From assembly GCF_017068455.1 (NCBI RefSeq), contig NZ_CP070608.1, positions 2,337,488 to 2,401,487 of the forward strand: a DNA stretch of 64,000 nt, given 5' to 3'. Positions 27,107 to 40,155 of this stretch are shown here, one piece after another. Each line of letters starts with the position of its first letter. Position 1 is the stretch's first letter. Origin of the DNA: Fulvivirga lutea (lineage in GTDB: Bacteria; Bacteroidota; Bacteroidia; Cytophagales; Cyclobacteriaceae). The position numbers were made by a program, and so were the translations under genes. The notes below the pieces were generated by a model, which worked only from the letters and a program-made list of their open reading frames with translations, was not told where the DNA came from and ran no database searches.

Positions 27107-27589
27107 ATGGCCAATAAGTTTCGCAAAAAGATAGAAGAAAAGATTCTGAAGCCAATCATTGGCTTCTTAAAACAGGGGATGACCCCAACAAAGCTCGCTT
27201 TGTCCATCAGCCTTGGGTTTTGTTTTGGCTTATTTCCAATAGTTGGTATTACTACTTTACTCTGCCTCATTATCGCCTTTGTCTTTAAATTGAATCTTGC
27301 GGCAATCCAGTTGATCAATTATTTGGTTTATCCTTTTCAATTGGTTGTACTAATTCCATTAATACACCTTGGTTCTAATATGTTAGGTGTTAACCCAATA
27401 CCTTACTCCATACAGGAAGTTATGGATTTAATAAGTGAAGATTGGTTGAAGGCAGTTGAAATGCTATGGATGGCCACACTTATGGGAATGTTTGCCTGGT
27501 TAGTAACCATTGTGCCAGCTAGTTTTATTGGATACTTTATTTTAAGAAGTATCTTTCTAAAAATGGCAGGTAAGCCTAGCGATGATTAA
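27107..27589 (+). CDS. DUF2062 membrane protein
   Basis: A 160-residue inner-membrane protein, start placed at the ATG at 27107. The DUF2062 pattern is clear: a basic N-terminal helix, TPTKLALSISLGFCFGLFPI and then three more transmembrane segments (LCLIIAFVFKL, NYLVYPFQLVVLIPL, VPASFIGYFILRSIF). The open frame begins 64 codons earlier, but that part is the DUF2807 gene read in another frame and it runs through a terminator, so I reject it. Function of the family is unknown. It ends 14 bases inside the LtaS-like gene on the other strand. Confidence 0.85.
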   Translation: MANKFRKKIEEKILKPIIGFLKQGMTPTKLALSISLGFCFGLFPIVGITTLLCLIIAFVFKLNLAAIQLINYLVYPFQLVVLIPLIHLGSNMLGVNPIPYSIQEVMDLISEDWLKAVEMLWMATLMGMFAWLVTIVPASFIGYFILRSIFLKMAGKPSDD

Positions 27590-29402
27590 AATCTAAATAT
27601 AACTTTTGTAAATAAGCACGACCTTTTTGTTTGCCGGTGTCGTTGGCTCCTTCATTAGTAATAAATTGCTTTCCTGTATTGTCGTAAATTACTTTCTCAT
27701 TTTTAGACAAGTAACCTACTCCATTGTTGTAAATAAATATAGCAAACGGGTCTAAATTATCGGAAAGCATGTTGTTGCTAAAAATGTAAGATGAATCCTG
27801 AAAGCCTAATTGCGCAAACAGAGTGTTGGCAATGTCTGTTTGTGTTCCGTAATTATGAATTACGGTATCTTGTTTGTTAATAGCACCACCTAACCAAAGC
27901 ATTGGAATTTTAAATCGGTCAGGATTTGAAATACCTTCATTGCCAGGCATAAAATGTCCATGATCTGCAGTGATAATAATTAATGTACTGTCCCACCAAT
28001 TGGTTTGCTTGGCCTTTGCAATAAATTCCCCGAGACTCTTATCTGTATAATATGCGGAGTTTTTGAACATACTTTCATTATCATCACCTTCAATGACTGT
28101 TTCCATTGGCACTTCAAATGGCTCATGACTACTTTGTGTCATCATGATTTTAAAGAATGGTTCTTTTACCGCCTTGGCTTCTTCCAAAAACTTATCGAAT
28201 ACGAAATGGTCATGAACGCCCCATTTGGAGGTATTATGTTCTGGCGGAAAATTCTTGCTGTGTGTTACCTTATCAAATTGCCCGTTAGTGAGGTACGATT
28301 TGAAATTAGCATAGTCGATATTATAGCCATAAGTAAATTGAGTTGCATACCCTCTGGCCTTTAAATTTTTGTTGATATATGGTAGCGTACTGGTTTTTTT
28401 AGGGAATTTGATGATTGAACCAAGTGGTTGTCTTGGGTAGCCGTTAAGAACGGAAATGATGCCCATGTCGGTTCTATCTCCTGAAGAATAGAAATTATCA
28501 AAAAGTATTCCCTCATGAACGAGATTATTAATGTTTGGTGTAATTCCCGGCAATCCGCCTAGTGGCTCAATAAACCTGAAAGAATAACTTTCTAGCATTA
28601 TAATCATCACATTGGGCTTTTTAACATTCAAAAGTTTTAAGCCAGTGGTGTCCTGCACAATAAGATTTTCAAAAATGCTATCTGATAAATCCTTTTCAAG
28701 ATAGTTTTCAGGGTACTTTAATCGATTAATTTTTCTTACGGCATAGCCAAAATTGTATACAACATTAATTGCCGAATGATTGGCAAACATATTGGAGTCA
28801 TGGAAATAAACGGTTCCTGTGTTTATTGGGGCCACTCCGGTGGTGCCGCGAATTGGTGCAATTAGAAGCCCTGTCAATAATAAAATAACCAAGCTAGACT
28901 TATATTCAGATTTTTCAAGATTGGATATAGCCGATCCGATAAATCTATGGTAACAGTACACTGACGCAGAAAAGAACAATAGCCAGAAAGTAACCATGAT
29001 GATGGTTGTTAACGGATCACCTGATCCTGCCGCTTCCTTGCCTATATATAGTAATGGAGTTGCATCCATTCTAAAGCTCCAGTGGCTGTAAAGTTCCATG
29101 TCTAATACCACGATAAAAGAGCTAATAAAAAGCATTAAAGTGGTATAAGCCAACAGACTAATTTTTAGAACTTTTGAATTAAAGTAGGTGGTGAGTGTTA
29201 TTAACAGTCCTGGTATTAATGTGAAATATCCGGCTACTGTTAAGTCTAACCTCGCCCCATTGAGCATGGATAGTATAATATCACCAAAGCCCATAGCAGC
29301 TGTATTTTCATATTGATACACCATGAAAAACACTCTGGAGATTTGAAAAAACACAAACCAGAATAAAAAATAGCTGAGAAATAGCTTTATGCGCTGAGCC
29401 AT
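27576..29402 (-). CDS. LtaS-like membrane phospho-head-group transferase (alkaline phosphatase superfamily)
   Basis: A 608-residue membrane protein starting at the ATG at 29402 (the frame extends to a TTG at 29420). Five transmembrane helices occupy about residues 1-200; the rest is an extracytoplasmic sulfatase-type domain. MIIMLESYSFRF supplies the first metal ligand (E), SSGDRTDMGI carries the Thr nucleophile (Thr311), and IITADHGHF the late D-H metal pair. Relatives transfer phosphoglycerol or phosphoethanolamine from a lipid to an acceptor, or cleave it. It is the last gene of the phosphonate unit, 53 bases after the HAD gene, which suggests the head group handled here is aminoethylphosphonate; that is inference. 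Confidence 0.85.
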   Translation of the reverse strand: MAQRIKLFLSYFLFWFVFFQISRVFFMVYQYENTAAMGFGDIILSMLNGARLDLTVAGYFTLIPGLLITLTTYFNSKVLKISLLAYTTLMLFISSFIVVLDMELYSHWSFRMDATPLLYIGKEAAGSGDPLTTIIMVTFWLLFFSASVYCYHRFIGSAISNLEKSEYKSSLVILLLTGLLIAPIRGTTGVAPINTGTVYFHDSNMFANHSAINVVYNFGYAVRKINRLKYPENYLEKDLSDSIFENLIVQDTTGLKLLNVKKPNVMIIMLESYSFRFIEPLGGLPGITPNINNLVHEGILFDNFYSSGDRTDMGIISVLNGYPRQPLGSIIKFPKKTSTLPYINKNLKARGYATQFTYGYNIDYANFKSYLTNGQFDKVTHSKNFPPEHNTSKWGVHDHFVFDKFLEEAKAVKEPFFKIMMTQSSHEPFEVPMETVIEGDDNESMFKNSAYYTDKSLGEFIAKAKQTNWWDSTLIIITADHGHFMPGNEGISNPDRFKIPMLWLGGAINKQDTVIHNYGTQTDIANTLFAQLGFQDSSYIFSNNMLSDNLDPFAIFIYNNGVGYLSKNEKVIYDNTGKQFITNEGANDTGKQKGRAYLQKLYLDFNHR

Positions 29403-29455
29403 ACTTAAAATTTTCCGCAAAGAAAATGTTATTAAATGGGTCTTACAAATATTGA

Positions 29456-30109
29456 TTAATTATTAGCAGTAAGTAGAGCAGATAGTTCCTGAGGAGTGTC
29501 CACCAAATAATCAGGATGAAAAGAACTTAACACCTTTTTGGTATGGAATCCCCAAGTTACACTCACTATCGGTAACCCGCATTGCTGTGCTGCTTCAATA
29601 TCTCTGGTTTCATCACCAATTAAAAGAATTTGTCGAGGATCTAATTCATACTCTTTTATAAGAGCATTAATGGTTCTGTACTTTTTGAATAAGCGGATGC
29701 CGGTAGAATAATATGAAAACGATTCTGTCAGTCCGTGATTATCGAGAAACGTTTTAGTGTTTTGTAACGAATTGCTGGTAACAATACCAAGCTTATAATT
29801 TTCAGCAAGGTCTTTTATTACCTCTACCATTCCCTCGAAAGGATGTAATTGATCTATGCTTTTTGATAAACTCTTACGAAAGGCGGAGGCCACAAACGGA
29901 AGCTTAACCAACGATATACCAATAGCTTTAATAGCATTTTGAGTGGATAGATTTCTGTAAAAATCTAAATCCTGTTTATCAGCAATTTGTTTGTATCGGA
30001 ATTTATGAGATAATTGATTTGATATTTTTATGCCTAATTCGAGCGTATCGGCAATGGTTCCATCAAAGTCGAATATGATGGTTTCTATATTTTTAAGCTT
30101 ATCAGGCAA
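29456..30109 (-). CDS. HAD-family phosphatase, phosphoglycolate-phosphatase-like
   Basis: A 217-residue haloacid-dehalogenase-type hydrolase. Motif I is IIFDFDGTIADT (two aspartates), motif II VTSNSL, motif III a lysine in LFKKYRTI and motif IV LLIGDETRDIEAA; a helical cap lies between motifs I and II. It starts with TTG (no ATG lies before motif I) 3 bases after the nucleotidyltransferase stop. It lacks the motif pattern of phosphonoacetaldehyde hydrolase PhnX, so it is more likely a phosphatase; its substrate in this pathway is unknown. Confidence 0.82.
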   Translation of the reverse strand: MPDKLKNIETIIFDFDGTIADTLELGIKISNQLSHKFRYKQIADKQDLDFYRNLSTQNAIKAIGISLVKLPFVASAFRKSLSKSIDQLHPFEGMVEVIKDLAENYKLGIVTSNSLQNTKTFLDNHGLTESFSYYSTGIRLFKKYRTINALIKEYELDPRQILLIGDETRDIEAAQQCGLPIVSVTWGFHTKKVLSSFHPDYLVDTPQELSALLTANN

Positions 30110-30112
30110 GAA

Positions 30113-30856
30113 TTATTGATCTCGTTGCTGTATCAATGGATAAACCATTTCCAGTGCTCTGTTCAAATGATTTTCATCATCAATTTCGCACCATGCGAGG
30201 CCTTCCACTTTTTTTATAAAGATATCTTTTGTCTTAGAAATACCAACGAAATCATCCTCATAATGAAAGCTACGATCACCCTTATCGTATAATTTCATAG
30301 CATAATCACACATGAGGTTGAAGGTGCTTAATGATATTTTGCTAATGCCTACCAATTCGCCTGATATGTGATTTAACTCTGAAGGTTTCTTGCTCATGTT
30401 GGTTAAATGAGACTGCTCATTAGCCTCAATGTACACTTCATCATTCGAGTTTGTTTTACCACTCGCTAAAACAATATCTTGGTGTGTGTCTGTAATTAAA
30501 TGTGTAAGAGCTGCTTTTTCATAGAGCAAATCACCTTCGAGTAGTAAAAAATCTTCATTGATTAAAGATTTTAAATTGTACAGAGTGTACATGCTGCCTG
30601 TAGCCGCGTAATCGTCATTGCGATGTGTTTCTATTTGAGGAAACTCATTTTTAAGATTATCAAAGAACTCATTTAAATAGCCAGTACCAATGATGATTCG
30701 GGTAATTCCCTGGTTTAGTAAGTTTTCAATAGAGCGATGAATTAATGTTTTTCCATCAATTTCTAAAAAGGCCTTGGGCTTTTCTTTTGTTCGATCTTTT
30801 AATCTGCTGCCTAGTCCGGCAGCCAAAATAACAGCCGTTTTAATAGCGCCACTCAT
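30113..30856 (-). CDS. Nucleotidyltransferase, candidate CTP:2-aminoethylphosphonate cytidylyltransferase
   Basis: A 247-residue sugar-phosphate-type nucleotidyltransferase. The canonical NTP loop is intact: VILAAGLGSRLKDRTKEKPK, with G-x-G-x-R and the PK pair. EGDLLYE carries the metal-binding aspartate and WCEIDDENHL the second acidic site. Given the operon, the likely reaction is activation of aminoethylphosphonate as CMP-AEP (PntC-like), which the CDP-alcohol phosphotransferase could use. A phosphocholine or other small-molecule cytidylyltransferase is the main alternative. It overlaps the upstream stop as TAATG. Confidence 0.78.
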   Translation of the reverse strand: MSGAIKTAVILAAGLGSRLKDRTKEKPKAFLEIDGKTLIHRSIENLLNQGITRIIIGTGYLNEFFDNLKNEFPQIETHRNDDYAATGSMYTLYNLKSLINEDFLLLEGDLLYEKAALTHLITDTHQDIVLASGKTNSNDEVYIEANEQSHLTNMSKKPSELNHISGELVGISKISLSTFNLMCDYAMKLYDKGDRSFHYEDDFVGISKTKDIFIKKVEGLAWCEIDDENHLNRALEMVYPLIQQRDQ

Positions 30857-31983
30857 TAGTTTTTAAGAAAATTCATGAGCCGTTCTTTCACCTCGTGAGG
30901 TTTAATAGTTGGCCTGCCAAGTTCTTTTGGAGAACCTTTGGCTATTTTTAAATGAATAAAAGTGGCCTTTGGGTTTGATGACCAATTGGCAAGTTCATCT
31001 TTCAACTCATCTAAGGTGTTTACTTTAATAGCCACGGGGTAGCCGGTAGCATGAGCCACAGTGGCAAAATCGATATTAGGTGAAATGGTAGCCTGACCAC
31101 CGGTAGAATCGTGTGTGCTATTATCGAGTAGGATGTGTAACAGATTATTCGGGTGGTAGTAACCATTGGTTCCAAAATTACCCATCCTCATTAGTGCCGC
31201 ACCATCACCATCTATAGCTACTGATTTTATGGATTTGTCGGCAAGTGCCAAACCCAAAGCCATGGAGCTAATGCAACCCATGGATCCTACCATATACAAA
31301 TTATTAGGCTTGTCTTCAATTTCGAATAACTCTCTGCCGGTTTTACCTGTTGTGGCTAATAATGCTGTTTTATTATCAGCCCAATTAGAAATAGCTGTTA
31401 AAGCTTCGGTTCTGGTAGGTGATACTTCTTCTTTATCCGAATGTTTTAATTCTTTGGCGAAAGTTGTTGAGATATTTTGTGTTTTAAGTGTCACCTCATC
31501 AAATGTGCCCTTCTTTACTACAAAGAAAAATGTCTTGTTATTTTCTATTGCTTGATTGGCTCTTTTAAGTTGCTCTTTAGCTTCATTCAAATCATTAGCC
31601 AGATATTCCCACTCAACCTCCATAGAGCTTAGCATATTTCCTGTGATTCGCCCCATTAATTCGTGCTGTGGTTCATCGTTCAGTCCTTCTTCGCCACGCA
31701 AGCTTACAAAGCCTAGTACAGGTAATTTAAATGAGTAATTCAATGAGGTAAGGGGAGAAGTAGCATTGGTTAATCCAGAGTTTTGCATCAACACCACAGA
31801 TTTTTTACCTGCAAGATATGCACCGGCTGAGGTAGCTACTGCATCACCCTCATTCGCAGCCATTACATAGTCACACTCATTAATAGCATAATTGATGAGG
31901 TATTTAAGAAAGGAGCAAGGCACCCCACTGTAAAAATCAAAACCTAAATCTTTTAAAGCTGAGCCAAATTGTTGTGTATTCAT
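30856..31983 (-). CDS. aepY: Phosphonopyruvate decarboxylase
   Basis: A 375-residue thiamine-diphosphate enzyme that converts phosphonopyruvate to phosphonoacetaldehyde, pulling the mutase reaction forward. The N terminus FYSGVPCSFLKYLI and the glutamate in AANEGDAVATSAGAYLAGK are typical of Ppd, as is the segment RGEEGLNDEPQHELMG. The C-terminal ThDP-binding motif is DGDGAALMRMGNFGTNG with a following HDSTGGQ. Length equals the family norm. It lies 3 bases after the mutase stop and overlaps the next start by one base. Confidence 0.93.
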   Translation of the reverse strand: MNTQQFGSALKDLGFDFYSGVPCSFLKYLINYAINECDYVMAANEGDAVATSAGAYLAGKKSVVLMQNSGLTNATSPLTSLNYSFKLPVLGFVSLRGEEGLNDEPQHELMGRITGNMLSSMEVEWEYLANDLNEAKEQLKRANQAIENNKTFFFVVKKGTFDEVTLKTQNISTTFAKELKHSDKEEVSPTRTEALTAISNWADNKTALLATTGKTGRELFEIEDKPNNLYMVGSMGCISSMALGLALADKSIKSVAIDGDGAALMRMGNFGTNGYYHPNNLLHILLDNSTHDSTGGQATISPNIDFATVAHATGYPVAIKVNTLDELKDELANWSSNPKATFIHLKIAKGSPKELGRPTIKPHEVKERLMNFLKN

Positions 31984-31986
31984 TGC

Positions 31987-33582
31987 TTAAATTCTGAGTT
32001 TACCTGCTTCTTGATAATCAACCATAGTATCTACATCTAACCAGGCACCGCTAATGTATTTTACCGCAATTGTATGTTCTTTGGCGATTTCATTAAATAG
32101 ATCAGTGCAAGTCATTTGTTTGAAATTCTTGTCTTTACTCAACGTATCTAATGCCTTTCTTACAATCTCAGATCCATTTGAATTAACCTTCCATAAACCA
32201 ATAAATTCACCATGCGCTTTCTTTTCTAATTCAATACCCATGGACTTGAATTTGGCAGTGCCTCTGAAGTTCTTTTTACTATACTTCTTACTTGCTCTTA
32301 CCAGATCTTTGTCACCCGTTGGTTTTTTGCTATCTGCATCAACAATCAAAGTAATGTCATTGGTATCATTCAATAATTCGTGAAGAACATATTTCTTAAA
32401 AATGATGTCTCCATAGCTGATAACGGTGTTTTCTTTTATTTCATCTTTGGCCAGATAGAGTGAATACAACTCTTTAGTAGAGGCAAAATCATCGTTATCA
32501 ACTGCCTTGATGTTACCGAGGCTTATTTTGTCTTTTGCAAAACCTCTCACCACCGTAATATCCTTAATACCAACCTGATTAAATTCATCAATTTGAGTAC
32601 TTAATAATGATTTACCATTAACCTCTAATAAGGTTTTAGGTTTGTCTTTTACTAACTCTCCCAGTGAACCCTGGCTAGCGGCAAGGATTATATTATTCAC
32701 TTTTTTACCTGTTGTTGGTAAATACAGTTTTTCAGCTTCCTTCAACTCATCTGCACCTTGTATTCTAAACACCTCAGAAACGGTCACTACGTTGCCCTCT
32801 ACATTTATCAATGATTGATCATCGTAAATCCGCTTCGTGGTGTCTTGCATTACCTTTATAGAAGCACGCATATTATGGTTCGCCCAAATAGCCATGCTTA
32901 CACCTAAGTCTCTAAAATGATCTGTTGGCGTAGAATAATATTTTGTAGGAACAATAATGACAGGGCAACGGTCACCCCATTCTTTCATAAATGCATCAAC
33001 ATCTGAAGAATCAGCCTTTTTGCTGTGGCAAAGGATCGCATCAGCTCCGGCATTATGATAGGCATCTGCTCTTCTCAATGCTTCATCTAATCCCCAGCCT
33101 GCAATAAATGCCTCAAGTCTGGCCACCACAGAAAAATCAGGGTCTTGTTGAGTATCCTTTGCCGCTTTTATTTTGCCGGAAAATTCGTCAATATCTGCTA
33201 ATGGCTGATTTTCACCGCCTATAAATGAATTAGTTTTAGGAAACAGCTTGTCTTCTATACAAACGGCTGCAACATCTCTTTGCTCCAGTTTTTTCACCAG
33301 CCTTCTCATGTTGTTGAAGTTTCCATAACCAGTATCGCCATCTAAAAGTATTGGAATAGTGGTGGCATCACTCATAAACTCCAGCACATCAAGTACCTGA
33401 GTCCAGGAGGCTTCGTTGTTATCTCTTACACCTAATGCCGCTGATATTGACAGACCACTGCCCCATATGCCTTTAAAACCTGCTTCTTCAACTATTTTTG
33501 CTGAAAGCCCATTATGAGCTTCCATTATAAATTCTAACTCCTTGCTAAGGAGCATTTTTCTAAACTGGGTAGTTTTTTTCAT
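31987..33582 (-). CDS. aepX: Phosphoenolpyruvate mutase fused to a nucleotidyltransferase-like domain
   Basis: A 531-residue fusion starting at the ATG at 33582; the frame opens with a TTG at 33591 that lies inside the promoter. Residues 1-290 are PEP mutase, forming the C-P bond: [11 protein letters not shown], the diagnostic [11 protein letters not shown] at about 109-119 (EDKxxxxxNS separates mutases from isocitrate-lyase relatives) and [11 protein letters not shown]. From about 295 an NTP-transferase-like domain follows, but its loop reads [17 protein letters not shown]: the first glycine is serine and the usual arginine is missing, so nucleotide use is uncertain. First gene of a five-gene unit. 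Confidence 0.93.
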
Positions 33583-33588
33583 AGGGCA

Positions 33589-33596
33589 CAAATATA
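33589..33596 (-). promoter_or_regulatory. -7 box of the PEP mutase unit
   Basis: On the minus strand TATATTTG (33596 to 33589) matches the Bacteroidota -7 consensus and ends 6 bases before the ATG at 33582. The in-frame TTG at 33591 lies inside it and therefore cannot be the start of a transcript-encoded protein. No clear -33 TTTG is seen. Confidence 0.5.
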
Positions 33597-33736
33597 GAAG
33601 GATTTTAGTCTTTGGGCGTAATTAAATAGCGATTGGAAGCTTAATAATTATGCAATCGTTTGTTCTAATTTCGCATAAGCTTGCTAATTGGAATCTCATT
33701 CGGATGTAAGGGCATTTTTGATTTTATTTGCAGTCC

Positions 33737-34738
33737 ATGAAGCCGTATGCATATCAGTGTAAAGATTATTCTTTGCTTACCCCCTTGTTTAAAAAGATAT
33801 TTATTGAGCCTTTAATAGGCTTTATTCCATGGGCGATACCGGCCAACATTATTACTATAATCTCAAATGCCTTCTTCTATATAGCGCTTTACTTTTCGTT
33901 TGATATTTCACTATTAGGAAACGCCACGTTCTTTGTTATTCCTTTATTGCTGCTACTATATTTAATAGGTGATCACCTAGACGGTGCACAAGCTAAAAGG
34001 ACTAAAACTGGTTCGGCTTTAGGTGAGTTTTGTGATCATTATTTAGATGCATTTAATAATGGGATATTGATGCTCATTTTGTTTAACTTATTTTCGGTTA
34101 CAAACCCATATTTGGTAGCCGTTGTACTTGTTACATCATATTGCGCTCATGTAATTGTTTTCTATGAACAATTTAAAACAGGTTGGCTTATTTTTGAAAA
34201 GGTAGGATCGTTAGAAGGAGTCATCCTGGCTATTTTTATCATTATGGCTGCCAGCATTGAACCTGTTTATCAATTTTATGTTAACCCATTAATTTTTGGT
34301 TATTCTGCCATTGAATTACTGCTTATTGGTATAAGCATTGGAGCTGTAGGCACATTTGTAAAAACAGTATTAAGAACACCCAATGTGCGTTATAGTATTT
34401 GGATGTACGTGGTAATCGTATCATTAATTGCTTATCTGGGCAATTATGTGTTCAGTGTTGCAGAGTTAACAGCTGTAGTTACATTATACTCTTCGTTATA
34501 TCTGGGTAAGATCATGCAAGGTCATCTTATTGATGGTATAGAAAGAAGCCCCGGTCTATTTACACCATTGTTTCTTATTATCATTATGGGAGTTCCATCG
34601 CTATATGAGGGGAATACACTTACAGTTTTAATCATCTATTTAGTAGCTAGTATTTTATTATTGATTTATAGAACATTCCAGTCCTTAGGTAAATTTTGGG
34701 TTTGGGTTAATCCTCGTTTAGAAAATGAAATTAGTTGA
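33737..34738 (+). CDS. CDP-alcohol phosphotransferase, choline/ethanolamine phosphotransferase-like
   Basis: A 333-residue membrane protein with about eight transmembrane helices, starting at the ATG at 33737 (TTG at 33728 also in frame). It catalyses transfer of an alcohol-linked head group from a CDP-type donor to a lipid. The active site is DHLDGAQAKRTKTGSALGEF followed by CDHYLD: DG-x2-A-K-x8-G-x3-D-x3-D at residues 82-104, with lysine in place of the common arginine. The stretch GxxAxRTxxxxxLGEFxDHxxD is closer to eukaryotic choline/ethanolamine phosphotransferases than to PgsA or Pss. In this context the donor is probably CMP-AEP and the product a phosphonolipid (inference). The next gene overlaps by 14 bases. 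Confidence 0.88.
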   Translation: MKPYAYQCKDYSLLTPLFKKIFIEPLIGFIPWAIPANIITIISNAFFYIALYFSFDISLLGNATFFVIPLLLLLYLIGDHLDGAQAKRTKTGSALGEFCDHYLDAFNNGILMLILFNLFSVTNPYLVAVVLVTSYCAHVIVFYEQFKTGWLIFEKVGSLEGVILAIFIIMAASIEPVYQFYVNPLIFGYSAIELLLIGISIGAVGTFVKTVLRTPNVRYSIWMYVVIVSLIAYLGNYVFSVAELTAVVTLYSSLYLGKIMQGHLIDGIERSPGLFTPLFLIIIMGVPSLYEGNTLTVLIIYLVASILLLIYRTFQSLGKFWVWVNPRLENEIS

Positions 34739-35822
34739 TAGAAAAATATTGTTGAATCCTGGTCCAGCAACTACTACGGATACAGTTAAAAATGCGATGG
34801 TGGTAGAAGACATTTGCCCACGCGAAGAGGAGTTTGGCAGTCTGATTGAAGGTATTAAGACCGATCTCGTAAAGGTTGTACATGGCGAAGGTGCATATAA
34901 ATGCGCATTATTTGCAGCTAGTGGCACCGGTGGATTAGAAGCAGCAATTACATCGGCTGTGCCTGAAGGTAAAAAACTATTGGTTATTGAAAATGGTGCC
35001 TATGGCGCTAGAATGGTAAAAATTGCGCAGACTTTTGGCATCGAAGTGGTACATTACCAACTGGAATATGGTGATTATATTGATGTTGCCACAGTTGAAA
35101 AATTGTTAGCAGAGGATCAAACAATTAGTCATTTGGCAGTTGTTCATCATGAAACAACTACAGGAATGCTCAATCCTGTGCAAAAAATTTGTGATATTGC
35201 CCATAACCATAAGGTAGAAGTTATTGTCGATTGCATGAGCTCTTATGCCGGCATTCCTATCGACTTGCGTGAATGGAATGCAGAATATATTATTTCTTCC
35301 TCAAACAAATGTATACAGGGAATGGCAGGCCTTGTATTTGTGATTTTCAAGGAATCTCTTTTGCCATCATTAGCGAATCAAAAAAGGTCTTTTTATTTCA
35401 ATATTTACAATCAGTATGTAGGCTTTGAAAAAACGGGACAGATGCAATTTACACCACCAGTGCAGGTGTGCTATGCCTTAAGACAGGCTATTAACGAATA
35501 CTTTGAAGAAACAGAGCAGGGCAGGTGGAATAGGTATCAAAACAACTGGGATGTTTTAGTGGAAGGGTTACAAGACTTAGGCTTCTCATTTTTACTACCT
35601 TACGACCAGCAATCTAAAATTCTTTTGGCCATTATAGAGCCTAAAAGTGAAAAGTATGATTTCGATGAGATGCATAACTTCTTGTACGAAAAAGGTTATA
35701 CAATTTACCCCGGTAAAGGAGCTAAGAAATCCACATTCAGATTGTCAGTTTTAGGAGACTTGCACGAAGAGGATATCAATGGATTTTTGAGCGAGTTGAA
35801 AAGATATATGGGCTCTTTATGA
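34725..35822 (+). CDS. phnW: 2-aminoethylphosphonate:pyruvate aminotransferase
   Basis: A 365-residue class-V PLP aminotransferase that interconverts phosphonoacetaldehyde and 2-aminoethylphosphonate. LLNPGPATTTDTVKNAM opens it as in PhnW, CPREEEF and ASGTGGLEAAI follow, and the PLP lysine is Lys195 in SSSNKCIQGM. Although PhnW is catabolic in many bacteria, here it sits with PEP mutase and decarboxylase and without phosphonatase, so it should run in the biosynthetic direction. Co-transcribed with the phosphotransferase. Confidence 0.93.
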   Translation: MKLVDRKILLNPGPATTTDTVKNAMVVEDICPREEEFGSLIEGIKTDLVKVVHGEGAYKCALFAASGTGGLEAAITSAVPEGKKLLVIENGAYGARMVKIAQTFGIEVVHYQLEYGDYIDVATVEKLLAEDQTISHLAVVHHETTTGMLNPVQKICDIAHNHKVEVIVDCMSSYAGIPIDLREWNAEYIISSSNKCIQGMAGLVFVIFKESLLPSLANQKRSFYFNIYNQYVGFEKTGQMQFTPPVQVCYALRQAINEYFEETEQGRWNRYQNNWDVLVEGLQDLGFSFLLPYDQQSKILLAIIEPKSEKYDFDEMHNFLYEKGYTIYPGKGAKKSTFRLSVLGDLHEEDINGFLSELKRYMGSL

Positions 35823-36969: not shown

Positions 36970-39900
36970 CTACTTTGGAATTATTATAGTGAACTTCGTA
37001 TAAACATTATATTCACTTTCAACTTTAATACTTCCACCTAATTTTTCGATAGCCATTTGCGATAAGTATAATCCTAGTCCACTTCCTTTGGACTGGTCTG
37101 ACCCACGATGGAACATATTAAATACCTTATCTATATGTTCTGGGGGTATACCAGCACCATTATCAGTAAAAGTGATGGTGTATTCAGTCTCACTTTGAGC
37201 CGTAGTGATATTTATTTCACACGGCTTTCCGCTATGTCTAAAAATGAGTGAGTTTTCCATCAGGTTGGTAAGTACTATGGCGAGCAGAAAAGGATCAGTT
37301 TTTACCTGCAATGTGGTTTCGAGGTTGAAGGAATATTTGGCTGTATCCTCAGGATCTAGAAATTTGATGGTATTTCTAACATCTGAAATCATTACAGGTA
37401 GGTCAATAACACTCTTTTCCACTTCGCAGTTAATTACCTCATGCACCTGGGTAAGCTTGGCTAGCAACTTATTCATGTCCTTAGCCACCAACTCAATTAA
37501 GTTATAATACTTAATGTCATTAGGGTTGCTGGCTTCTAATTTAGCTAAAGAAGTTAGTCCGTTAATTCTACTGATGGGGCCTTTCAAGTCATGCGATGCC
37601 CTATAAATGAAAGTATCTAACTCAGCGATAGTAGATTGCAACTTTTTAACCGTGACTCTAATTTCAGAAGTACGCTCATCCACTTTTTTCTCTAAAGAAG
37701 AATTGAGCTCTTGTAGCCGTTCATTAATACTTAGAATTTCTTCCTGCGATAATTCCAACTCCTGATTTTTTTCATTGATATCATCTCGCTGCTGCTGGAT
37801 TTCCTCAAACTGTTCTTTAAGTTTTTCGTTCTGCTTTTCTATTTCTTTTTTCTGAGATAGCACTTCGAAAGTTCTATCTGCTACAATGAGCTTCAGTTTT
37901 CTGCGCTGCAACCTTACGCGGTAAGAATAAGCCAAAACAATAAACCAGATACTTAAAACACCACCTATAGCAAACAAGGCATAGGCCCAGGTTGTCATAT
38001 ACCAAGGAGGAAGAATCGTAAAAGTGTAGGTGGCTGTAGTTCCTTCTTCTTTAAATACATTTAGAGATTTCACTTTAAATGTATATTGGCCCGGAGAAAG
38101 GTTGGTATACTCTTTTGTGGTTTCCTTAGTCCATTCCGACCATGTTTTATCATAGCCCTCCAAGGAGTAGGAATACTTAGTTTTCTCAGGTAGCTCTAAA
38201 AATGTAGCAGCGTATTCAAATCTGATTGAGTTATAATCATACGTTAGGCTAGGTATTGCCTCTTTGGTTTGATTGGTGCTAATTCTTGGAATCGTGTCTG
38301 ATGACGTATAGACAGTGTAGTATCCTCGTGATAAAGTTGAATCTATGCTGCTTACATTTCTTATCAGCGTGTTGAACTTGGTGTTGAGGTAGTTAGTGTT
38401 TTGAGTATCGAATTTGTAAATATTGTCAGCAGTGGTGAAATAAACGTATCGTTTGCCATCGTAATCGATATCCTCAAGTTCTCGAAATGGGAAGTTGTTG
38501 AATTTGTATGACTCAATGTGGTAAGAATTTGCAGAAAAATTTACTTCATATAAAAACTTCTCATTTAGATTATTTTCTCCAAATACTATATAATTATCGC
38601 CTATTTCTTGAATTGCCTTTATTATGCCCTCTTTAAACGTGTAAGCATATTCGAAAGAATTCTTTTTAGTAGAAAATTTATACAATTTATTTCCTACTGT
38701 GGTGAATATCTGGTCATCAATAATGAGTAAAGAACACTCTCTTTTGAAGTCTAAACCATCAATGTTTGAAAATTTCTCAAATGTTCCATTATCCACATTG
38801 ACAATAAATACCTCTCCAAATTTAGTAGTAAACCATGCTTTTCCATTATGAATTTTTGAATCATAAAAAACAGGATGTGGTAAGTTCAATCGTTTGATTT
38901 GTTTCAGCTCATTATTACTAATTTTAAAAAGATAGGTGTCACTTGATTGACTGACAAGTAAATGGTTTTGGTCTATAAATTTTACAAATGCTGTGATTGG
39001 AAGGTTTATGCTATCAACTATTTCTAAATTTAGATTGAGCAATTGTATACCCTGCCTTGTGCCTAAAATAATTCGATTATCTAGAACATCCATACTTTGA
39101 AATAGATCAATAGCTAAGTTCGTTTGTTTATCTTCTTCTATTTTTATGATATGCTTCGAAGTGGCTGTTAAAAACATATTATTATGCAGAAAAGTGACTT
39201 GGAAGGATTCTTGTGATTGACTAAAGTCTTGGATTTGCCATGGAGACCCAATTTTGACATGTGAAAGTCCGTTTGTGGATGTGGCCCATATGTTACCAAG
39301 ACGATCTTCTTCGGCATGTCTAGTAAAGCCATCTGCAAGGCCATTTTCTTTATTTAATGAAGTTATTTCTAATAAGTTTTTGTCAAACAGTTGAATGCCA
39401 TTTTCAGCATTAGTAAATAAGAGTGATGAGTCCTTTAAAAAGAATGGGTATAGAATTTTATCATTTACTTTAGATTTGAAAATGTTTGGTCCGATTACAT
39501 TCCCATCATCATATAAAAAGATAAAGCTGTTATTTTGTTGAAAAACGGATGCAAGTCGCATATCTTCTTGAGGTATTGAAGTTTTTAATACTCTTTTATT
39601 TCCATCAAACAGATATAATATAGAGTCACCTTGGGAGTAATATAGATTAGTTCGATCATAGAACATTCGTGTTCCATTTCCCAAGTAATCAATGCTATCT
39701 TTTTCTTTAATTTCCCAAAGAAAAATACCTTTGTTAGTACTAAATAAAACTAATTCATCTGTGCTGAAAATTCTCCATGTAATAAATGAGGATGGTATTT
39801 CAGGAACCAGTTTTGATAAGTCATTAAGCACAAATAACCCTTTACTATTAATTGAGATATAACCAAAGTGGTTTTTTCCACCATAAAGTAATAAATTATG

Positions 39901-40155
39901 TATTGAATCATAATAGATACAAGGTACGATCTCTCCTCCAAATTCTAGTCTCCATTTATTGCCATCATAGCTTATTAATCCTTCATAATTAGCCAGAACC
40001 AATAAGCCACTTTTGTGCTCTGTAATAGTTATGTTGGACCTAGAAGCATTAATATCAGTATTCTTATAGATTTTAATTTCAAGGCCTTCGTGAACTTGAC
40101 CAATTGAGTTCAGCGATAGAGTTAGAAATAATATTGTTGATAGGTATCTGAGCAC
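36970..40155 (-). CDS. Propeller/Y_Y_Y sensor histidine kinase
   Basis: A 1061-residue sensor kinase. A signal peptide is followed by about 620 residues of beta-propeller repeats of the two-component regulator (Reg_prop) type, for example ENGLADGFTRHAEEDRLGNIW. A Y_Y_Y domain ends with TKEYTNLSPGQYTFKVKS near residue 700, then one transmembrane helix at about 719-744 and a coiled coil. The kinase core has the H-box RASHDLKGPISRI (His855) and DNGAGIP near 997 and GSGLGLYL. Unlike the hybrid systems of glycan loci, there is no receiver or AraC domain, and no response regulator is adjacent. Confidence 0.9.
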   Translation of the reverse strand: MLRYLSTILFLTLSLNSIGQVHEGLEIKIYKNTDINASRSNITITEHKSGLLVLANYEGLISYDGNKWRLEFGGEIVPCIYYDSIHNLLLYGGKNHFGYISINSKGLFVLNDLSKLVPEIPSSFITWRIFSTDELVLFSTNKGIFLWEIKEKDSIDYLGNGTRMFYDRTNLYYSQGDSILYLFDGNKRVLKTSIPQEDMRLASVFQQNNSFIFLYDDGNVIGPNIFKSKVNDKILYPFFLKDSSLLFTNAENGIQLFDKNLLEITSLNKENGLADGFTRHAEEDRLGNIWATSTNGLSHVKIGSPWQIQDFSQSQESFQVTFLHNNMFLTATSKHIIKIEEDKQTNLAIDLFQSMDVLDNRIILGTRQGIQLLNLNLEIVDSINLPITAFVKFIDQNHLLVSQSSDTYLFKISNNELKQIKRLNLPHPVFYDSKIHNGKAWFTTKFGEVFIVNVDNGTFEKFSNIDGLDFKRECSLLIIDDQIFTTVGNKLYKFSTKKNSFEYAYTFKEGIIKAIQEIGDNYIVFGENNLNEKFLYEVNFSANSYHIESYKFNNFPFRELEDIDYDGKRYVYFTTADNIYKFDTQNTNYLNTKFNTLIRNVSSIDSTLSRGYYTVYTSSDTIPRISTNQTKEAIPSLTYDYNSIRFEYAATFLELPEKTKYSYSLEGYDKTWSEWTKETTKEYTNLSPGQYTFKVKSLNVFKEEGTTATYTFTILPPWYMTTWAYALFAIGGVLSIWFIVLAYSYRVRLQRRKLKLIVADRTFEVLSQKKEIEKQNEKLKEQFEEIQQQRDDINEKNQELELSQEEILSINERLQELNSSLEKKVDERTSEIRVTVKKLQSTIAELDTFIYRASHDLKGPISRINGLTSLAKLEASNPNDIKYYNLIELVAKDMNKLLAKLTQVHEVINCEVEKSVIDLPVMISDVRNTIKFLDPEDTAKYSFNLETTLQVKTDPFLLAIVLTNLMENSLIFRHSGKPCEINITTAQSETEYTITFTDNGAGIPPEHIDKVFNMFHRGSDQSKGSGLGLYLSQMAIEKLGGSIKVESEYNVYTKFTIIIPK

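Follow-up and report, generated by a model that had tools for sequence, protein, structure and literature searches.

What becomes of 2-aminoethylphosphonate (AEP) in a bacterium that can make and activate it? A gene block of Fulvivirga lutea raises this question. It occupies bases 27576-35822 of the window, which is the whole 64,000-nucleotide stretch analysed here (positions 2337488-2401487 of the complete 4.14-Mb genome). A first-pass annotation, made from the letters alone, had read the block as a route from AEP to a phosphonolipid and perhaps onward to the cell surface. We suggest that the genes encode a bacterial pathway of the Kennedy type that makes a lipid with a carbon-phosphorus (C-P) bond, and that an LtaS-like enzyme probably moves AEP onward; on sequence and predicted structure we hold this reading to be moderately probable. 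A phosphonolipid is the likely product of the phosphotransferase step. The seven genes were recovered exactly where they had been placed, in two divergent, tightly spaced units, and family calls use the Pfam and NCBIfam profile cut-offs. The features are as follows.

27576..29402, minus strand: LtaS-like transferase, with an N-terminal membrane part and a Sulfatase domain (PF00884, 136.6 bits, cut-off 25).
29456..30109, minus strand: HAD phosphatase, phosphoglycolate-phosphatase-like, an optional accessory (HAD_2, 126.4 bits, cut-off 23.8).
30113..30856, minus strand: PntC, the predicted CTP:AEP cytidylyltransferase (aligned to Treponema denticola PntC, 6pd1/6pd2; NTP_transf_3, 47.6 bits, cut-off 27).
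30856..31983, minus strand: phosphonopyruvate decarboxylase, Ppd (TIGR03297, over its cut-off).
31987..32697, minus strand: nucleotidyltransferase domain fused to the C-terminus of the mutase, about residues 296-531 counted from the ATG (NTP_transf_3, 32 bits against 27).
32698..33582, minus strand: phosphoenolpyruvate (PEP) mutase domain, PepM or Ppm (TIGR02320, over its cut-off).
33583..33736, no strand: 154-bp stretch between the divergent units, presumed from the spacing of PepM and EPT to be the promoter region.
33737..34738, plus strand: EPT, CEPT1-type CDP-alcohol phosphotransferase (PF01066, CDP-OH_P_transf, 31.6 bits, cut-off 22; sequence and fold matches to CPT1/CEPT1).
34725..35822, plus strand: AEP transaminase, AEPT, of the PhnW/AepZ type (TIGR03301, over its cut-off).

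The left unit runs PepM, Ppd, PntC, HAD, LtaS with intergenic gaps of -1 to 35 bp (3 bp between PepM and Ppd, a 1-bp overlap of Ppd and PntC, 3 bp between PntC and HAD, 35 bp between HAD and LtaS). In the right unit EPT and AEPT overlap by 14 bp. The ATG starts at 33582 (PepM), 33737 (EPT) and 29402 (LtaS) are likely to be the ones used, in preference to the listed TTG starts.

The first-pass annotation had proposed to look for the same seven genes in relatives, and six of them are indeed found together. The PepM fusion, Ppd, PntC, EPT, AEPT and LtaS stand in the same order in all eight uncut blocks: the window, L054 (UBA1842), L055 (Chryseolinea sp. H1M3-3), L056, L057 (Splendidivirga corallicola), L062, L068 and L291. 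Hence, the grouping is not a matter of chance. The HAD gene is present in only three of the eight (window, L054 and L057), so the idea of seven genes as an obligate set is rejected. An assignment of the HAD protein as phosphonatase (PhnX) is rejected as well, with 21.7 against 218.9 for the PhnX-like TIGR03351. Locus L055 carries an additional Sulfatase-family gene between the arms, and L058 and L289, which are cut by contig ends, are not among the eight.

The synthesis of AEP from PEP in three steps is established enzymology of the PepM, Ppd and AEPT families. The three proteins score 390.6 bits (TIGR02320, cut-off 319.55), 407.8 bits (TIGR03297, cut-off 312.5) and 425.8 bits (TIGR03301, cut-off 360.8), respectively, and the EDKXXXXXNS motif of the mutase, ten residues long, begins at residue 110 counted from the ATG. 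Thus, both the mutase with its EDK...NS motif and the three-step route recognised in the first pass stand, and AEP synthesis by the block is strongly supported by these profile matches. What was overlooked is that the mutase frame 31987-33582 is a fusion, with PF13714 at residues 10-255 and NTP_transf_3 at residues 301-412 (counted from the TTG). The loci L191-L196 of Bacteroidota hold another form of PEP mutase, of 430-433 aa, with an extra N-terminal domain in place of the C-terminal one.

Two nucleotidyltransferases could therefore be considered for the activation of AEP, the fused domain and the separate enzyme 30113-30856. The separate one matches the solved T. denticola PntC with E 3e-68 over residues 5-245. 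Its R18, K28, E107, K156 and E200, counted by hand on the alignment, correspond to R15, K25, E104, K153 and E196, the residues named in PMC6697681. All five are invariant in the four aligned PntCs (window, G011, G029 and G030), and the window protein also carries the GXG(T/S)RX4-8PK consensus. The proposed activation of AEP as CMP-AEP by this protein is thus strongly backed by sequence; we return to the fused domain below.

The identity of EPT is central to the fate of CMP-AEP. Its family profile finds eukaryotic CPT1/CEPT1 as the best solved sequences (E 1.7e-13 to 1.3e-8), while AF2299-based and CDP-diacylglycerol-inositol phosphatidyltransferase entries are weaker, at 5.5e-6 and worse. With the single sequence, only CPT1 and CEPT1 among solved sequences fall below E 0.01. 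The AlphaFold model (pLDDT 90.5) has human CEPT1 8gyw as its best Foldseek match (TMq 0.76, E 2.7e-9, 351 columns), and gives TMq 0.72-0.76 with three CPT1 structures, 0.45 with AF2299 and 0.35 with PGP synthase. Hence, the predicted model has the CEPT1/CPT1-type fold (8gyw, 8ul9, 8ero, 9uet) over its whole length, and not merely the short CDP-alcohol core. The human enzymes of this family complete phosphatidylethanolamine and phosphatidylcholine. Of the family motif, D-x2-D-G-x2-A-R-x8-G-x3-D-x3-D, EPT has all four Asp, with Lys in place of Arg. Unlike CEPT1/CPT1, to which EPT is 17-18% identical in the structural alignments and whose donor is CDP-choline or CDP-ethanolamine, EPT would use CMP-AEP. 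The enzyme type occurs in eight of 81 PepM loci, namely the window and the best 80 of 560 confirmed matches to a query containing the fused domain; all eight are titled Cytophagales, and some of the loci are short.

The ordinary membrane lipid phosphatidylethanolamine (PE) has its own source in this genome. Besides EPT it has one other CDP-OH_P gene, which encodes 227 aa and was judged PssA-like by eye, and it also has two Psd genes. Since the PssA-like gene and the Psd genes are present, PE need not come from EPT, and a requirement of EPT for PE synthesis is rejected.

The relatives tie EPT to PepM. Of the 58 genomes examined first, a number that includes the window's own, four have the PepM fusion, each with the block; among the 14 other members of the window's genus, 13 have an EPT homologue. 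A family-wide search matched EPT in 29 of 390 genomes, 25 of them convincing; an order-wide search matched five of 390 and added one convincing genome, G571, giving 26. Weak EPT matches (G020, G845, G907, G909, G026 and G479) and weak isocitrate-lyase-family matches to PepM (e.g. G001, G010, G012 and G835) are not counted. Twelve of the 26 have the PepM fusion, 13 lack it, and G008 is undecidable. Where the PepM state is clear, in 25 genomes of the order, the EPT motif keeps its last Asp in 12 of 12 genomes with PepM and in none of the 13 without. Of the latter, seven have Glu at this position, G005, G010, G012, G013 and G835 have another residue or no motif, and the EPT of G891 is truncated. 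G891 keeps a scar (L297:3442-4551) in which PepM, EPT and AEPT are reduced to about 34, 33 and 30 residues, respectively, around the divergent promoter region, adjoined by an open HAD frame. Because these remnants persist, the locus seems to have lost both arms, with misassembly possible in a genome of 680 contigs.

These data bear on the proposal that EPT makes an ordinary phospholipid from a CDP-alcohol, AEP being used elsewhere, for example on a glycan through an unlinked transferase. The persistence of EPT homologues in PepM-less genomes speaks for it. However, every one of these homologues has an altered or missing Asp at the end of the motif, and PE has the PssA/Psd route. Nor was a LicD-like frame seen in the window block by eye, with no family search made; one, likewise judged by eye, stands in the AEP locus L228 of another family in the phylum. 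We regard this proposal as very improbable. We infer lipid transfer by EPT from the CEPT1 fold, the tie to PepM and the separate PE route.

The acceptor is a further question, as the product would be ceramide aminoethylphosphonate, and not a glycerolipid, if EPT used ceramide. Phosphonate sphingolipids are reported from Bacteriovorax stolpii (PMC5648825), and they resemble the proposed product in being bacterial C-P lipids. Four loci of the family of this species, Bacteriovoracaceae, hold a parallel gene set: PntC, a CDP-alcohol phosphotransferase, a small membrane-like protein, PepM, Ppd and AEPT, with other frames between. LtaS was not matched in these four loci. On the other side, the fold matches of EPT are to CPT1/CEPT1, which use diacylglycerol, and one matched entry is titled as a diacylglycerol complex. 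We rate ceramide as the less likely acceptor, but EPT may use either lipid.

The LtaS-like protein would act on the lipid thus formed. Its nearest solved chains are the uncharacterised VP1736 (3lxq) and then the LTA synthase 2w8d. With the LtaS family (2w8d, 4uoo, 2w5q) it shares the Sulfatase fold family, the catalytic Thr and the metal-site Asp-His, aligned by eye, which places it in the superfamily of LtaS-like head-group transferases. It differs in scoring 62.8 bits against the cut-off of 970 for the NCBIfam LTA synthase equivalog, and in its closest solved chain. Thr317 (counted from the TTG at 29420) aligns by eye with the LtaS-type nucleophile, and is invariant in 11 of 11 aligned LtaS sequences, the window's included, from genomes with or without PepM. 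The phosphonate monoester hydrolase 2w8s is among the matches, which suggests that a Sulfatase-type fold of this kind can handle a C-P group. Since LtaS stands in the same unit in all eight uncut blocks, on the strand of PntC and close behind it, a transfer of AEP by this enzyme is the step we favour.

In PepM-less relatives the setting of LtaS is different. Seven such genomes (G001, G002, G004, G006, G007, G009 and G014) have EPT divergent from LtaS, which is 52-55% identical to the window's and is followed by a lipid kinase, Pfam-confirmed as DAGK_cat in one of them (L027). In G000, G008, G011, G029 and G030 the best kinase match has at most 43% identity. In G005, LtaS and the kinase share a contig, and a motif-less EPT lies on another; G835 has LtaS and HAD beside a motif-less EPT, and no kinase was matched there within 20 kb. 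We hypothesise that the diacylglycerol released by LtaS returns to use through the kinase in the PepM-less relatives and through EPT in the genomes with the block.

Several observations weigh against the Kennedy-type reading and its LtaS step. EPT has Lys at the Arg position of the motif. The PepM-bearing EPTs form one clade (97/96), so the link between the last Asp and PepM reflects few independent events and is a consistent pattern rather than statistical proof. In G571 and G1042, EPT and PepM are on different contigs, the PepM fusion being cut by contig ends in both. G008 keeps AEPT and LtaS and has an EPT with a D-to-G change, and neither PepM nor PntC was found in it, its contigs breaking exactly there; because they end at LtaS and at EPT and the middle is missing, G008 is rejected as evidence of a clean PepM loss. 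Strict coupling of EPT and LtaS is doubtful, since G005 and G835 retain LtaS with a broken EPT motif, and the substrate of LtaS need not be AEP, since LtaS accompanies EPT where PepM is absent. Finally, the Bacteriovoracaceae analogy is one of pathway and not of enzyme, because their phosphotransferase belongs to another subfamily, closest to AF2299.

Together with the invariant nucleophile, the capacity for PE synthesis and the presence of LtaS in G005 and G835, where the EPT motif is broken, the retention of LtaS in PepM-less genomes would fit another picture. In it, synthesis would stop at the AEP lipid, which would serve as a structural component of the membrane. LtaS would be a neighbour of longer standing, working independently of AEP and transferring phosphoethanolamine or a different head group taken from ordinary phospholipid. 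Opposed to this are the constant place of LtaS behind PntC in the uncut blocks and the genomes G010, G012 and G013, in which no LtaS orthologue was found and the EPT motif is broken too. We take the structural-lipid picture as possible, albeit doubtful, and continue with the Kennedy-type pathway ending in LtaS.

Two side observations concern these neighbourhoods. At L023:9468-11305 and L025:9495-11268 a broken-motif EPT is adjoined, at the place of LtaS, by a putative membrane protein of 204-230 aa with no Pfam match. Outside the Cytophagales blocks, LtaS-family matches lie near PepM in L060, L064, L072, L073, L075 and L091, of which L064, L072 and L073 are from Firmicutes.

The pathway would proceed as follows. 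In the first step, PepM, Ppd and AEPT would convert PEP to AEP. In the second, PntC would join CTP and AEP to CMP-AEP. These two steps, like the family and fold assignments in general, are supported by sequence and structure prediction.

In the third step, EPT would transfer AEP from CMP-AEP onto diacylglycerol (or ceramide), with the formation of an aminoethylphosphonolipid, an analogue of PE. The lipid attachment proposed at first thus gains support from the CEPT1 fold, from a last Asp that is kept with PepM, and from the independent source of PE; its substrate pair is deduced.

In the fourth step, the LtaS-like enzyme would take the AEP head group off the lipid via a threonine intermediate and pass it to a surface acceptor, and the freed diacylglycerol would be reused by EPT. 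We infer this onward step, its acceptor and the recycling of diacylglycerol, as well as any role of the HAD protein; for the passage to the surface, the first-pass proposal has gone no further than this.

The fused domain of the mutase probably does not take part in the activation of AEP. That such fusions exist was known: in PMC6697681, 33% of Ppm enzymes are fused to PF12804 and the fused domains are counted as nucleotidyltransferases. In the window the fused domain has an 11-residue loop of its own where PntC has LAAGLGSRLKD, and the PntC Arg is gone. Among the 81 loci, none of the 81 fused domains has Arg at the Arg15 position and all 44 separate enzymes have it; eight of the 52 separate nucleotidyltransferase matches, at no more than 150 bits, are left out of the table. 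Tyr or Phe stands at the Glu104 position in 79 of the 81 fused domains; of the 44 separate enzymes, 38 have Glu or Asp there. Since the query includes the fused domain, mutases with a canonical fused domain are possibly under-sampled. Two further fused domains from a phylum-wide draw (L197 and L199), read by eye, also lack the PntC Arg; the other fusion type in Bacteroidota (430-439 aa frames with an extra N-terminal domain) lies outside this count. In PntC, exchange of Arg15 for alanine leaves less than 10% of the activity (PMC6697681), and that source, as far as its available text goes, makes no statement on a missing Arg in the fused domains. Hence, because this key residue separates the two groups completely, the separate enzyme is our candidate for CMP-AEP synthesis.

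The converse assignment, in which the fused domain would be the one that activates AEP with CTP and the separate enzyme would have some other substrate, appears highly improbable to us, above all given the lost Arg and the exchanged Glu. Some features of the fused domain would agree with it. The equivalents of Lys25 and Asp106 are retained in 77 and 79 of 81, respectively, and a separate enzyme over 100 bits is missing in 12 of 43 well-flanked PepM loci across phyla (at least 5 kb on each side, 10 kb per side fetched). In many fused domains the loop has an Arg at a different place, in AAS-Arg-G, but the window's has Gln there. In three genomes the fused domain is 83.5, 63.6 and 72.0% identical to the window's, against 72.5, 60.6 and 56.1% for PntC, and is thus at least as conserved; by this measure it is not decaying in the window's relatives. 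The domain may have a role in regulation, in assembly or on another substrate.

We also considered whether the loop residue (AAS-Arg-G versus Gln, Lys or an eroded loop) tracks the presence of a separate PntC. The raw Fisher p of 0.007 over the 43 loci, with the residue unread in seven of them (e.g. L074, which has Arg), is kept as a hint only, and tree-independent pairs gave no support (three pairs, sign test median p 1). In L076, L088, L098 and L106 (Bacillus, Priestia) the signature loop of the fused domain is not recognisable.

Across phyla, a CDP-alcohol phosphotransferase gene occurs in 22 of the 43 well-flanked loci. For a stretch of 20 kb about 0.006 would be expected by chance, as estimated from 32 matches over some 110 Mb of the window's relatives, and so from other taxa than the 43 loci. 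A separate PntC over 150 bits is found in 30 of the 43, and both together in 20. The phosphotransferases paired with PepM and PntC in other phyla are not of the EPT type, and AF2299 is the nearest solved chain for the two that were compared; the superfamily thus seems to have been recruited to AEP more than once in bacteria. A LicD-like gene is present in at least three of the 43, a lower bound because the profile was seeded from one protein, judged LicD-like by eye (that of L228). AEP-type clusters need not lead to lipid, since for marine phosphonate producers PMC8931226 favours glycoproteins.

In Bacteriovoracaceae and two further lineages, a membrane-like protein of 208-212 aa, possibly a transporter, is encoded between the phosphotransferase gene and that of PepM; its frames, listed without strand, are as follows.

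L087:9351-9989.
L094:9351-9986.
L100:5900-6526.
L111:3956-4585.

The nearest described system is the Pnt pathway with the T. denticola and A. rimae PntC (Rice et al. 2019, PMC6697681). It shares PepM, Ppd, AEPT and PntC with the block, and its clusters (Fig. 3c) likewise show a mutase-nucleotidyltransferase fusion with another nucleotidyltransferase near. However, LicD-like phosphotransferases or glycosyltransferases stand there in place of the CEPT1-type phosphotransferase and LtaS found here, and the window's fused domain lacks the Arg on which PntC activity depends. According to the same source, almost nothing is known of the biosynthesis and roles of bacterial phosphonylated glycans and lipids. 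The block would fill a gap in what is known of phosphonates in bacteria, the attachment to lipid. It offers a specific candidate for this step with solved eukaryotic templates and a five-gene reconstitution, and relatives with intact, altered and lost catalytic motifs provide a natural series. Our observations add that the transferase is predicted to be of the CEPT1 type, that its last catalytic Asp goes with PepM, that relatives show an alternative state with EPT, LtaS and a kinase, and that the fused domain is not of the PntC kind. The last point casts doubt, at least in the sampled subfamily, on CMP-AEP synthesis by the commonest fusion domain of PEP mutases, counted as a nucleotidyltransferase in PMC6697681. 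No CEPT1-type enzyme in an AEP cluster was recognised in the titles and abstracts searched, which leave most subscription papers aside, so the novelty is provisional.

A more far-reaching model is offered as tentative, and in its entirety we find it rather unlikely. It holds that Cytophagales possess a complete Kennedy branch, built on a CEPT1-type enzyme, for a head group with a C-P bond, and that LtaS draws on the resulting phosphonolipid to coat a surface polymer with AEP. EPT would directly recycle the diacylglycerol, a task of the lipid kinase in relatives, and the mutase-fused domain would be a conserved, derived sensor of CTP or CMP-AEP, or a dock for PntC, and not a CMP-AEP synthetase.

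Two minor observations concern adjacent genes. Beside the block, at 36970-40155 on the minus strand, the window encodes a large protein with a histidine-kinase-like end, and large frames are similarly placed next to AEPT in L018 and L019. At L027:10512-13367 a subtilase with a Por secretion tail is convergent to EPT, and frames of similar size and place occur in L026, L028, L029, L030 and L031.

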